Below, piece by piece: positions 30,739 to 35,750 of a stretch of 64,000 nt of DNA. Positions within the stretch are counted from its first letter, which is position 1. Every line of letters begins with the position of its first letter. Both the position numbers and the translations under genes were made by a program. This stretch comes from Swaminathania salitolerans (lineage in GTDB: Bacteria > Pseudomonadota > Alphaproteobacteria > Acetobacterales > Acetobacteraceae), in NCBI RefSeq assembly GCF_007988945.1, contig NZ_BJVC01000001.1, positions 806,001 to 870,000 on the forward strand, written 5' to 3'. The notes under the pieces were generated by a model. That model was not told the origin of the DNA. It did not search any database and saw only the letters and a program-made list of their open reading frames with translations.

Positions 30739-31061
30739 GTCCTGCTGACTGCGGCTGAGGTCTGGCGACAGGCGCTGCCGGGGGTGCCGCGATGCCCGGT
30801 TCCGGACGGCTCCGGTCACCCCGGACGGTCCCGATAAGGGGGGGGGGCGCATGAGCGTGCTGCGCCCGGCCTCCGGTATCCTGCTTCCGGCGGCACGCCG
30901 TCGAGCGAATGGTCGTCACGGTGACATCTCCAGGACGTGAAGGCCGGATCGCACGAATCAAGTTGCGACGTGCAACAAACTCTCCAGACTAAGGCCACGA
31001 GTCACAAGGCCCGGCCTGATGCCGGTTCCTGCGCCTCTTTCACGAGTTGGAGATTTCACCG
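30739..31061. other. Intergenic region with G10 tract, upstream of the epimerase
   Basis: About 320 bases without a supported gene. It contains partly repeated CCGGACGG blocks (30801-30832), an unbroken run of ten G (30838-30847), and the dyad GTTGC-GACGT-GCAAC at 30962-30976 that matches two sites near the ROK regulator. GGAG at about 31047-31050 is the ribosome binding site of the epimerase. Confidence 0.6.
30962..30976. promoter_or_regulatory. Candidate ROK operator, site 1 (epimerase promoter)
   Basis: The perfect dyad GTTGC-GACGT-GCAAC (5-5-5) lies 86 bases upstream of the epimerase ATG. Sites with the same architecture occur at 33489 and 33650 in the divergent promoter region of the polyol permease and the ROK regulator. 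Shared use suggests one repressor; binding by the ROK protein is inference. Confidence 0.55.
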
Positions 31062-31940
31062 ATGAAATTCGGGACCCTGTATTCCTACTGGAGCACGTCC
31101 TGGGCGTGTTCGCCGGATCACTATCTGGCTCTTGCCGAAAAGGTCGCTTCTATCGGTTTCGATGTGCTGGAGATCAGCGCAGATCATCTGTACCGCATGA
31201 GCCAGGCCGATATCGTGCGTTTGCGCCGGGCGGGAGAGTCCCTCGGGATCGGCTTTTCGGTCAATAGCGGGCCTTCGCGGGAGCACGATCTGGCTTCGCC
31301 GGACCCGGCGGTCCGGGAGAGCGGTATCCGGTATTTCGGAACGATCTTCGAAAAAATGGTGTCTCTGGGGACGGATACGATCGCCGGAGCCATTTACTCC
31401 TTCTGGCCGGACGATTTTGTCCGGACGGATCGCGAGGAGAGCTGGGCGTTGAGCATCGACTCGCTCAAGTCTGTCGCCGGGCGGGCCGAATATCACGGGA
31501 TACGCGTTGCCCTCGAAGTGCTGAACCGGTTCGAGAGCCATATCCTGAACACGAGCGACGAGGCGGTTCGCTATTGCGAGCGTATCGGAAGCCCGAATAT
31601 GGGAATCCTGCTCGACACTTTTCACATGAATATCGAGGAGGACGATATGAGCGCGGCCATCCGGCATGCGAACGCGCGTCTCTTCCATTTTCATGTCGGC
31701 GAAAACAACCGGAAACTGCCCGGTATGAACGGGACGATTGCATGGGAGCAGGTCGGCAAGGCCCTGAATGCCATCGGCTACGATCGGGCGGTCGTGATGG
31801 AGCCGTTCATGATCTGTGGAGGCGAGATCGGGCAGTCCATCCGGGTCTGGCGAGATCTGACCTCAGGAGCCGATCAGGTCGGGATGGACGATCATATCCG
31901 TCGTTCCCTTTCTTTCCTCCGTGAGGTGTTCTCCGCCTGA
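31062..31940 (+). CDS. Ketose 3-epimerase (D-tagatose/D-psicose 3-epimerase family)
   Basis: A 292-residue TIM-barrel sugar isomerase/epimerase. It aligns by eye with D-tagatose 3-epimerase: GTLYSYWSTSW at the start, ALEVLNRFE (catalytic Glu about 152), LLDTFHMNIEE (metal Asp about 185), FHVGENNR, and VMEPFM (Glu about 246). These enzymes epimerise C3 of free ketoses, including ketopentoses in characterised members. The ATG at 31062 has GGAG upstream; the in-frame 31047 start is less likely. It lies in the ribitol locus, so conversion between D-ribulose and D-xylulose is a plausible role (inference). Confidence 0.9.
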   Translation: MKFGTLYSYWSTSWACSPDHYLALAEKVASIGFDVLEISADHLYRMSQADIVRLRRAGESLGIGFSVNSGPSREHDLASPDPAVRESGIRYFGTIFEKMVSLGTDTIAGAIYSFWPDDFVRTDREESWALSIDSLKSVAGRAEYHGIRVALEVLNRFESHILNTSDEAVRYCERIGSPNMGILLDTFHMNIEEDDMSAAIRHANARLFHFHVGENNRKLPGMNGTIAWEQVGKALNAIGYDRAVVMEPFMICGGEIGQSIRVWRDLTSGADQVGMDDHIRRSLSFLREVFSA

Positions 31941-31967
31941 AACAGGGGGAAGCGAAGCCTGCAGATA

Positions 31968-31994
31968 AGGGAGAGGCTCTGCCTCTCCCTTTTT
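31968..31994 (+). terminator. Rho-independent terminator of the epimerase gene
   Basis: A perfect 9-bp stem, AGGGAGAGG (31968-31976) and CCTCTCCCT (31982-31990), with a 5-base loop, running into TTTTT (31990-31994), 27 bases after the stop codon. Confidence 0.93.
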
Positions 31995-32099
31995 CATGGC
32001 CGGTCTGTGCGTTGCTGGCGGAGATGTTCCCCGCGTAACCGGCGACGCGCCTGCACCGCCGCGGCCTCGGCCGGGCGGCGTGGCACGCATTCCGGGCGT

Positions 32100-33389
32100 T
32101 CAGGCCGCGATTTTCTGTTCGACGACAGTTGCCCTGCTCTGACGCGTATGTCCAGGCTGATCCAGCTTGATGAAAACCGTCAGGATTGCGGAGGCGAAAT
32201 AAAGGACGCTATAGCAAATCACGACCCCTTCGATTCCCCAGACCCCGATCAGTGCGGTGGCGATGGCGGGCGGGGTGAAGTTACCCAGTCCCCCGCCGAG
32301 GTTCTGTACCGAAACTGCAGCGCCCTTGTGTTCTGGCGCCAGCGTCGGAAAGATCGCTCCCATCGGTACGAAGGCGGTAATGGTAATGGCGAACAATACG
32401 GCGGCAAGGATGCCGATCGCCATGTTGCCCGGCATCCAGAGCGGGAGGTAGTAGAAAGTCAGCGTCGTCACGCCGCATCCTACGAAGCCCGCCCATCGGA
32501 TCTGCCTCATCCACCCGATGCGATCGCCGATGATGCCCCATGCAATATTGGTGAACAGCTGGACGGCGAAGAGAAGGCTATAGATATGCAGCCATTGCTG
32601 CATGGTGAAGCCGCCCTCTTTCGATGTGTAGAAGAGAGGCATGATCACAGGAAAGCCGAACAGGGAAAGATTGCAGGTAACCCTGATCACGAGGGCGAAG
32701 AACATGTTCCGATCGGTCGTGATCAGGGTAATGCTCTTCGCGATTTCGCGCAGATGTGTCCTCGGCCCGTGTCCCCCATATGGAGCAGTATTGCGGGTAT
32801 CCTTCATCGTGAGGACAGCGAGGATTCCCCCTGCGGCGACCCAGAGAATGGACGTCCAGAGAGTCGGCAGAAAGCCGATGGCAGGTATGGTCAGGCTCGG
32901 GATGAAGGATGAGAGCGTGCCGTATCCGAGGACGAACATGGACCACACCCAGCCGAGCGCCGAAGCCAGCCGCGCTGGCGGCGTGCGTTGGACGATCCAG
33001 TAATAGAAGCCGTAATAGAAAAGAGGATAGGCGATGCCCCTGATCCCGTAAAACACGTTCATCAGAAGAGAATCGCGATGGGCGAGGCCGAAGGTGAGGA
33101 AGAGGGCATGGAAGGCGATCCACCAGACCGTACCGAATGCCATGAGTTTCCTGGGATGGAACGTTTCCGCCAGAGCACCCGAGAGCCAGCTCGATACGGC
33201 AGCAGTCAGGCCGTAGACCGTAAACAGCTCCGCAGCCTGACCGGGCGAAAATCCGATGCCGGTCAGGTATTTGGACAGGAAGGCGATCTCGATTCCGTCC
33301 CCGGTCATGAAGATGGCAACGGCGATGTAGCCCCAGAACAGTTCGACCGGCATACCGGCCACGACTTTGGATTTATCTCGCTCGGACAT
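32100..33389 (-). CDS. Polyol permease of the MFS, ribitol transporter RbtT-like
   Basis: A 429-residue major facilitator protein with twelve hydrophobic segments. Its sequence follows RbtT/AlsT polyol permeases closely by eye: WGYIAVAIFMTGDGIEIAFLS near residue 18, YGIRGIAYPLFYYGFYY near residue 115, and TLAPEHKGAAVSVQNL near residue 352. It imports a pentitol, probably ribitol, by proton symport. The start MSERDKSK at 33389 is preferred to the 33452 extension, which adds a charged unrelated leader. It is divergent from the ROK regulator and convergent with the epimerase. Confidence 0.9.
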   Translation of the reverse strand: MSERDKSKVVAGMPVELFWGYIAVAIFMTGDGIEIAFLSKYLTGIGFSPGQAAELFTVYGLTAAVSSWLSGALAETFHPRKLMAFGTVWWIAFHALFLTFGLAHRDSLLMNVFYGIRGIAYPLFYYGFYYWIVQRTPPARLASALGWVWSMFVLGYGTLSSFIPSLTIPAIGFLPTLWTSILWVAAGGILAVLTMKDTRNTAPYGGHGPRTHLREIAKSITLITTDRNMFFALVIRVTCNLSLFGFPVIMPLFYTSKEGGFTMQQWLHIYSLLFAVQLFTNIAWGIIGDRIGWMRQIRWAGFVGCGVTTLTFYYLPLWMPGNMAIGILAAVLFAITITAFVPMGAIFPTLAPEHKGAAVSVQNLGGGLGNFTPPAIATALIGVWGIEGVVICYSVLYFASAILTVFIKLDQPGHTRQSRATVVEQKIAA

Positions 33390-33488
33390 TGATTGCTTCT
33401 TTATGCTCGGGCCCCGCGCGTCTCCATTCCCGGTCTGGCGGTGTCGCCGCACGGTATTTCGCGATCGTTCGAGGGGCCATGCTTGTTT

Positions 33489-33503
33489 GGTGCATAACGC
33501 AAC
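33489..33503. promoter_or_regulatory. Candidate ROK operator, site 2 (permease promoter)
   Basis: GGTGC-ATAAC-GCAAC has the 5-5-5 form with one mismatch from a perfect dyad. It lies 100 bases upstream of the permease start. The right arm and flank GCAACAAA are identical to site 1 at 30972-30979. Confidence 0.5.
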
Positions 33504-33649
33504 AAAACATTAGGAGCCATGAATGTGACCTTCAACAGATTCCTAACGCCACTCTCACATTCAAATCACACAATAACGTTATTTAAGGGCGGAATTTTTT
33601 CGTAGTAAGCATCTGGCCGAGGTGGAACGATCGGAAAGAGATGTATTAT

Positions 33650-33664
33650 GTTGCTCATCGTAAC
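33650..33664. promoter_or_regulatory. Candidate ROK operator, site 3 (regulator promoter)
   Basis: GTTGC-TCATC-GTAAC has the same 5-5-5 form with one mismatch, and an outer extension gives TATGTT...AACATA (33647-33667). It lies 117 bases upstream of the ROK start codon, suggesting autoregulation. Confidence 0.5.
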
Positions 33665-33780
33665 ATAGTGGGGTAGCGCCGTTCCGGCTTCCGGCGCAGA
33701 GACGCACGCGATATCCGGGCTCAGGAGGTTTCCCCAGCTCGGGGATATCCCAGCACAGGGGCACAGAAGAAGGGGGCACC

Positions 33781-34962
33781 TTGAAAGCCGCAACGAAACT
33801 CGGAGCCAGCGGGAGCGCCGTCCGGCAGCACAACATACAGGTCGCCTTGCGCGCGCTGCATCGGATGGGCCCCATGTCCCGTGCCGATCTTGCGCGCGAC
33901 ATGGGGCTGAACCGGTCGTCATCGGGGCATATCATCGGTCATCTCCTGCAGGAGGGATATGTCAGGGAGACGAACTGTCTCCCTTCATCGGGCAGGCAGA
34001 TGGGACGCCCGGGAATCATGCTGGAGCTCGTGCCCGAGGCGCTTTACTTCCTGGGTGTCGAGATCGGTGTCGCTCATGTCAGTACCGTCGTTCTGGACTT
34101 CACCGGTGCAGTCGTGCAGTCGGAGCGTCGTCTGTACGATACCCGCGGGGAGCCTCCGGCAGCGGCGGTGGAGGACATACTTCGCGATGCGTTCGCGTCT
34201 CTCGGGGCTGACATGCTGGCGCGGCTGCGGGGTATTGCGCTGGCCATTCCTGCTCATATTGACCCGGGCGGCCATCTCAGGCTCGCACCGCAGATCGGCT
34301 GGCAGGATTTTGCCATCCAGACCCTCGTACGCAAGCTGATACCCTCCGATGTCGCGATCCGCATCGAGAACGACGCGAATGCGCTCGCGATCGGGCATGA
34401 TTATCGCGAGTTCCATCCGGGTGTGACGCTGTTCCTGTTGATGGAAACGGGAATAGGTGGCGGGATCGTCGTCAACGGAGAGCTCTTTCGCGGAGGACGC
34501 GGCCTCGCCGGGGAGATCGGACATCTGCGTTTCCCGCGTTCCGTACCCGGGCAGGAGCAAGGCGAACGTTATGTGAGCCTCGAGGACCTTATCGGGAAGG
34601 ATGCGCTGGTTTGCGCCTATCGTGGCGCATCGGGCGAGCCTCTCGCGTCGTTCGATGATTTTCTCGCCGCCGTGAGCGACCGCGTTCCCGAGGCCGTCAT
34701 CATCGCCGAGGAATGGGCGAAGACCCTGGCACAGGCACTCTGTCAGACCATACGGACCATCGATCCCAACCGGATCGTTCTGGGTGGTTGTGTCTCTGCC
34801 CTTTATCGGTTCGTGGGCAATCGCGTTCAGCATCACCTGATGCGGGTCGATCCCGAGATGACCGAGCCGCCGCGCATTCTCGTCGAAGGACGGGAACAGT
34901 TCGGTGCCGCTTTCGGCGCTGCCTGCATCATGCACAAGGAATTCCTCAGTCGCGAAAGCTGA
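33781..34962 (+). CDS. ROK family transcriptional regulator
   Basis: A 393-residue ROK (NagC/XylR-type) regulator. The N-terminal helix-turn-helix is RHNIQ-like VRQHNIQVALRALHRMGPMSRADLARDMGLNRSSSGHIIGHLLQEGYV (residues about 13-60). The sugar-kinase-like domain follows with IENDANALA near residue 198, METGIGGGIVVNGELFRGGRGLAGEIGHL, and VLGGCVS. The usual CxCGxxGC zinc motif after the GHL segment is missing, replaced by a Cys-free segment. The start is a TTG with a strong upstream AAGGGGG. It probably senses a pentitol or pentulose and controls the permease, epimerase and downstream rbtD. Confidence 0.9.
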   Translation: MKAATKLGASGSAVRQHNIQVALRALHRMGPMSRADLARDMGLNRSSSGHIIGHLLQEGYVRETNCLPSSGRQMGRPGIMLELVPEALYFLGVEIGVAHVSTVVLDFTGAVVQSERRLYDTRGEPPAAAVEDILRDAFASLGADMLARLRGIALAIPAHIDPGGHLRLAPQIGWQDFAIQTLVRKLIPSDVAIRIENDANALAIGHDYREFHPGVTLFLLMETGIGGGIVVNGELFRGGRGLAGEIGHLRFPRSVPGQEQGERYVSLEDLIGKDALVCAYRGASGEPLASFDDFLAAVSDRVPEAVIIAEEWAKTLAQALCQTIRTIDPNRIVLGGCVSALYRFVGNRVQHHLMRVDPEMTEPPRILVEGREQFGAAFGAACIMHKEFLSRES

Positions 34963-35027: not shown

Positions 35028-35750
35028 ATGGAACTCAAAGGCAAGGTCGCTGTCGTCACCGGAGGGGCCTCCGGGATAGGGCTCGCATCGGCTAGGGCGA
35101 TGATCGCCGCCGGTGCGGAGGTCATTCTCGCAGACCGGAGTCGCGCTTCGCTCGAGTCCGCCGTAACGCAACTCGGCCCGGCGGCGATCCCGCTCGAAAT
35201 CGATCTGCTCGATGCGGCGCAATGTGCGGGGTTTCTGGATCGTCTCCTCGCCCTGCGCGGGAAGATCGACATCCTCCACGCGAATGCCGGGACCTATATC
35301 GGGGGCGATCTGGCGGAGGCGGATCTCGATCAGATCGATCGTATGCTCACGCTCAACGTGAATGTCGTCTTCAAGAATATCCGCAGCCTGGTGCCGCATA
35401 TGCGCGAGAATGGCGGCGGGGATATCGTCGTCACCAGTTCGGTGGCAGGACATACCGCCGTTCCGTGGGAGCCTGTCTATTCCGCCTCGAAATGGGCCGT
35501 ACACAGCTTCGTCCAGACCATGCGGCGTCAGCTGATCAAGGACGACATCCGTGTCGGATCCGTATCGCCCGGCCCGGTCATCAGCGCGCTCCTTGCCGAC
35601 TGGCCTGAGGAAAATCTCCGCAAGGCAAAGGAAAACGGCGCGCTCATCGAGCCGGAAGAAATCGCCGAGGCGGTTCTGTTCATGCTCACGCGCCGACGTA
35701 ACGTGAATGTCCGCGATATCGTGATTCTGCCGCGCTGCTTCGATATCTGA
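35028..35750 (+). CDS. rbtD: Ribitol 2-dehydrogenase (SDR)
   Basis: A 240-residue SDR that matches Klebsiella-type ribitol 2-dehydrogenase closely by eye. TGGASGIG is near residue 11, HANAGTYIGGDLAE near residue 84, then WEPVYSASKWAVHSFVQTMRRQ (Tyr-x-x-x-Lys), SPGPVISALLADWP, and the ending NVNVRDIVILPR. It oxidises ribitol to D-ribulose with NAD. AGAGG at 35015-35019 supports the ATG at 35028. It follows the ROK gene by 65 bases in the same direction and is probably cotranscribed. No D-ribulokinase gene accompanies it in the window. Confidence 0.9.
   Translation: MELKGKVAVVTGGASGIGLASARAMIAAGAEVILADRSRASLESAVTQLGPAAIPLEIDLLDAAQCAGFLDRLLALRGKIDILHANAGTYIGGDLAEADLDQIDRMLTLNVNVVFKNIRSLVPHMRENGGGDIVVTSSVAGHTAVPWEPVYSASKWAVHSFVQTMRRQLIKDDIRVGSVSPGPVISALLADWPEENLRKAKENGALIEPEEIAEAVLFMLTRRRNVNVRDIVILPRCFDI

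Follow-up and report, generated by a model that had tools for sequence, protein, structure and literature searches.

Three conserved palindromes as candidate operators of a ROK-family regulator in a polyol gene cluster of Swaminathania salitolerans

Through sequence analysis of a 64-kb stretch of the Swaminathania salitolerans genome (64,000 nucleotides, hereafter the window) and of related loci, three palindromic dyads have been recognised that very probably serve as operators of the ROK-family protein encoded beside them. This protein would repress three transcription units and would be induced by a sugar of the pathway. The predicted local regulon is strongly supported and comprises: (i) a 3-epimerase gene; (ii) a permease gene; and (iii) the ROK gene together with a polyol dehydrogenase gene (Table 1). 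The preliminary description of this DNA had tied the dyads to the adjoining ROK gene, and their conservation before ROK orthologues and their confinement to the locus in their own genome speak for that assignment.

The three dyads of the form GTTGC-N5-GCAAC that had been reported are present in the window, with correct letters and coordinates. The first core, GTTGCgacgtGCAAC (30962-30976), matches without mismatches, while the second, GGTGCataacGCAAC (33489-33503), and the third, GTTGCtcatcGTAAC (33650-33664), carry one mismatch each. The reported distances of 86, 100 and 117 bp to the genes are correct when these are taken to begin with ATG at 31062, with ATG at 33389 on the minus strand and with TTG at 33781, and the core is found nowhere else in the window at up to one mismatch. 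The orthologous locus of another Acetobacteraceae genus, with TTTGTTGCctttgGCAACAAA upstream of the ROK gene, indicates that the 10-bp core is the inside of a longer site, the 21-bp palindrome TTTGTTGC-N5-GCAACAAA. Sites 2 and 3 lie 161 bp apart, and the half-site TATGTTGC of site 3 is a common variant among the relatives. Between sites 2 and 3, at 33572-33583, a perfect 12-bp palindrome, AATAACGTTATT, occurs as a single copy in the window and could be the site of another regulator.

Table 1. Genes and candidate operator sites of the cluster (window positions)
Feature	Coordinates	Strand	Evidence and remarks
Operator site 1	30959..30979	.	CAAGTTGCgacgtGCAACAAA; agrees with the consensus at 13/16 letters; precedes the 3-epimerase gene; ranked third in the window by the relatives-only matrix
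Predicted ketose 3-epimerase, D-psicose/D-allulose 3-epimerase type	31062..31940	+	NF051856, 341.9 bits (cutoff 300)
Predicted MFS polyol permease, RbtT/DalT/CsbX subfamily	32100..33389	-	TIGR00897, 493 bits (cutoff 375), scored on the longer frame 32100-33452
Operator site 2	33486..33506	.	TTTGGTGCataacGCAACAAA; 15/16; upstream of the permease gene, in the divergent permease/ROK intergenic region
Operator site 3	33647..33667	.	TATGTTGCtcatcGTAACATA; 13/16; upstream of the ROK gene
ROK-family transcriptional regulator	33781..34962	+	TTG start; PF00480, 127.1 bits (cutoff 22.9); presumed repressor of the three sites
SDR polyol 2-dehydrogenase (ribitol/sorbitol 2-dehydrogenase type)	35028..35750	+	PDB 5jo9, E 5.7e-93

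The short core alone is weak evidence, since at up to two mismatches it gives 26 matches in the window against 26.4 expected, the same as in shuffled sequence, and at up to one mismatch it recurs at 105 places of the 2.92-Mb genome, where the reversed control gives 57. The remaining core matches, among those examined, fall mostly inside long reading frames. Pattern searches with the 21-bp site at up to 3/16 mismatches return exactly three places in the whole genome, namely sites 1-3, and one for the reversed control. Chance frequency, which the preliminary description had proposed to look for genome-wide, is thus not what the longer form displays, this uniqueness being a property established for the S. 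salitolerans genome alone. The AT-rich genomes of Commensalibacter carry the dyad genome-wide at near-chance numbers, with many near-matches. In one further Acetobacteraceae genome the operator pattern is nearly matched at 85 places and the control at 4. A dispersed palindromic repeat of the TTTGCTGCCGCCGGCAGCAAA type, seen three times at one locus of that genome (L032, positions 2507, 9783 and 9914), mimics the ROK operator and probably accounts for most of these matches; its copies at this locus were rejected as operators.

The comparison with relatives was based on ROK orthologues of 37-50% identity from Acetobacteraceae genomes, from Rhizobiales and Rhodobacterales plasmids, and from 80 genome contigs, the latter gathered by an alignment-based contig scan; a search across 385 genomes of the class returned no orthologues beyond the known ones. 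These 80 loci are mostly of Rhizobiales, so that counts are not independent; they hold 72 sites at 13/16 or better, distributed over 48 loci, whereas 12 permuted half-sites give 0-3 sites each. Blind motif discovery in 29 orthologous epimerase promoters, thinned by hand and not fully independent, had TTTGTT-N9-AACAAA as its best palindrome, present in 28 of them, against at most 5-7 in Markov shuffles. A scoring matrix built from relatives only, its sites being chosen by consensus, ranks sites 2, 3 and 1 first to third in the window (28.7, 17.5 and 13.3), the next score being 6.9. Simulated sequence of 3 Mb contains nothing that reaches the scores of sites 2 and 3, and four positions that reach the score of site 1. 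By the matrix, site 1 is weak, about four equally good sites being expected per 3 Mb. The possibility that orthologous promoters of relatives lack the dyad, also raised at the outset, is answered by the conservation of the motif in the promoters of ROK orthologues.

The motif accompanies this ROK subfamily in Acetobacteraceae, Rhizobiales, Rhodobacterales and one Enterobacterales genome, with Commensalibacter, Thioclava and other Acetobacteraceae among the carriers. In one genus (g58, loci L031 and L032) sites are located upstream of the ROK gene and of an ABC transporter gene, and neither an epimerase nor a permease gene was found near the ROK gene. In another genome (G055) a site precedes an epimerase gene whose product shares 62% identity with the epimerase of the window. 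The permease loci without a ROK gene (L066-L080) contain no site at 14/16 or better. The Enterobacterales case is Izhakiella australiensis, where a cluster of ROK, kinase, GatZ and dehydrogenase genes has two operator-like sites 161 bp apart; its presence there suggests horizontal transfer.

ROK regulators usually respond to sugars, and the protein of the window possesses the features of a pure regulator of this family. It contains the ROK signature (PROSITE PS01125) as METGIGGGIVVNGELFRGGRGLAGEIGH at residue 221. Among PDB structures, it aligns from residues 8-18 onward, helix-turn-helix (HTH) included, with ROK regulators such as Mlc and XylR. A winged HTH, by which regulators differ from kinases, is thus present at its N terminus, the MarR-type HTH match remaining below the cutoff (21.4 against 24.6 bits). 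The recognition helix NRSSSGxII is invariant or nearly so in the close ROK group, distant members having NRSTTG. The kinase ATP-site motif DxGxT is absent, as expected of a pure regulator, and the sugar-site motifs ENDAN (196) and GEIGH (244) are retained. The zinc motif CxCGxxGC, common among ROK proteins and not used here as a defining feature, is missing from the protein and from all seven aligned relatives tested. Near the gene there are conserved inverted repeats whose arms are T-rich and A-rich. An orthologue of NagC or Mlc was rejected on the NCBIfam equivalog scores (72 bits against a cutoff of 650, and 63 against 530). Elsewhere in the genome (contig C1, 438768-439667), a reading frame for a ROK domain, interrupted by a TAA stop, adjoins an intact ROK gene.

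The preliminary description called the regulon one for ribitol. The local regulon tied to the ROK gene stands, and the choice of ribitol is not settled, a hexitol such as allitol fitting the predicted gene families at least as well. This fit follows from an epimerase above the D-psicose cutoff (E about 1e-75 with D-psicose 3-epimerases of the PDB), from a permease subfamily that covers several polyols, and from a dehydrogenase of the ribitol/sorbitol group. The dehydrogenase gene begins 65 bp after the ROK gene and is probably co-transcribed with it; its product shares 73% identity with the dehydrogenase found in the rhizobial ROK clusters, which also hold a sugar kinase and a GatZ-type protein (GatZ-type tagatose-bisphosphate aldolase subunit). 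A second pair of this kind, 51% identical to the rhizobial ones, occurs elsewhere in the S. salitolerans genome (contig C8, L182, 6685-9798), after a DeoR-like regulator gene; no dyad lies nearby and the pair was rejected as a regulon member.

A real regulon that serves ribitol (via D-ribulose to D-xylulose), and not a hexitol such as allitol, altritol or sorbitol, is nevertheless a serious if somewhat improbable reading. The permease and dehydrogenase families both carry the ribitol name, five FGGY-type kinases of the genome could accept the pentulose, and ketose 3-epimerases act on ribulose too. Against it stand the epimerase score above the D-psicose 3-epimerase cutoff, the association of the same ROK in relatives with the sugar kinase and GatZ-type subunit, which are hexose-type genes, and the closest solved dehydrogenase, 5jo9, which we take to be the sorbitol dehydrogenase of Bradyrhizobium japonicum. 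The Bradyrhizobium japonicum enzyme is a D-sorbitol 2-dehydrogenase (PMC12193009).

That the dyads belong to another regulator, the ROK gene merely adjoining them, is very improbable. LacI-family proteins do bind palindromes of similar size, and one of them, PsiR, is known as the repressor that responds to psicose in Rhizobiales (PMC7445875). However, genus g58 has the motif in front of ROK and transporter genes with no epimerase or permease gene found nearby, the permease loci that lack ROK contain no site at 14/16 or better, the TTTGTT...AACAAA arms resemble the experimentally mapped RokB site (PMC4856308), and no further regulator gene was seen in the cluster. A chance origin, the 5-bp inverted repeats having been picked by eye from GC-rich sequence, is refuted to near certainty in spite of the common 10-bp core (the 105 genomic and 26 window matches given above), since the 21-bp form is unique to the three sites and was found blindly in orthologous promoters, and the half-site permutations over 80 loci and the relatives-only ranking agree.

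With the ROK protein as the preferred regulator, the proposed circuit would act as follows. In the absence of substrate, a ROK dimer would occupy the operators and hold down the epimerase gene, the permease gene and its own gene with the dehydrogenase gene. An intracellular sugar of the pathway, probably a ketose (e.g. D-allulose or D-ribulose), would enter the sugar pocket and release the protein from the DNA. The polyol would be imported by the RbtT-like permease, oxidised by the dehydrogenase to a 2-ketose, and C3-epimerisation of the latter would give a sugar of central metabolism. Two candidate routes, allitol to D-allulose to D-fructose and ribitol to D-ribulose to D-xylulose, would each need just these enzymes, the polyol route being suggested by family membership. 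The protein most likely acts as a repressor that also controls its own gene; we infer DNA binding by the ROK protein, repression rather than activation, the inducer and the substrate from the features described above. The start codons are about 100-117 bp away from sites 2 and 3, a greater distance than the usual 40-70 bp in relatives, and the promoter scan detected no consensus sigma-70 promoter near the sites, which leaves steric repression tentative. A terminator or attenuator reading of the sites is unsupported, the terminator scan being empty at these positions.

The arrangement of the sites in relatives is regular. Two strong sites occupy the divergent promoter in 71 of 77 relatives and a third is present in 6, while 76 of the 77 loci have one site 30-95 bp upstream of the epimerase gene. 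Operator spacings, after thinning of the relatives, fall preferentially near multiples of a period of about 10.8 bp; P is 0.026 when 21 clusters are used and 0.0002 when 30 are used, in a test that used jitter with a period scan as the null, included the spacing of the window itself and depends in its outcome on the thinning. The 161 bp of the window pair correspond to about 14.9 turns of 10.8 bp. This periodicity hints at helical phasing and a loop of the kind reported for NagC (PMC5401889). We tentatively suggest, while considering it rather doubtful, that this ROK subfamily (helix NRSSSG, zinc motif lost) has operators in pairs that span divergent promoters at a spacing of whole helical turns (about 10.8 bp each), and represses through a loop whose phase is preserved as its length drifts from about 113 to 261 bp; here the 161-bp pair would be joined by a third operator 2.5 kb away, drawing in the epimerase gene.

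The proposed circuit would be an ordinary kind of local sugar regulon. In the literature searched, with RegPrecise outside that search, no description of the operator motif was found, and the ROK subfamily associated with polyol and rare-sugar (allulose/tagatose-type) genes is apparently uncharacterised. A specific, conserved candidate operator can now be assigned to it in Acetobacteraceae, Rhizobiales, Rhodobacterales and at least one Enterobacterales genome. The substrate, the inducer and looping thereby become directly testable, and the protein may lend itself to the sensing of rare sugars or polyols, as a ROK-based complement to the LacI-type PsiR.

Compared to NagC and Mlc of E. coli, the system shares a ROK fold that includes an HTH at the N terminus, palindromic sites whose arms are T-rich and A-rich, and presumably autoregulation (PMC2580772); for NagC, two operators and DNA looping are also reported (PMC5401889). 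The motif had been described as unlike the AT-rich NagC/Mlc sites. This is right for its letters and for its GC inner core, and incomplete for the full site, since only the inner core had been noticed: the outer arms are T-rich and A-rich, as in ROK operators generally (PMC2580772, PMC4856308). The differences, as judged from general arm composition and gene content, relate to the TTTGTT/AACAAA arms with a conserved GC inner core, in contrast to AT-rich arms, and to the polyol genes in place of amino sugar or PTS genes. XylR, the xylose ROK repressor of Firmicutes, similarly represses sugar genes and has GTTT...AAAC arms (GTTT-N7-AAAC, PMC9104551), but differs in half-sites, spacing and pathway. 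The novH site of RokB from Streptomyces coelicolor, TTTGTTC-N11-GAACAAA (PMC4856308), has the same TTTGTT/AACAAA arms; these are separated there by 13 bp instead of the 9 bp of the window motif, and the targets are different. PsiR of Rhizobiales is likewise a regulator of psicose-related genes, and the divergent promoter at which it acts has two conserved sites of 20 bp (PMC7445875), but in contrast to the regulator described here it belongs to the LacI family, not to ROK, and represents an independent system.
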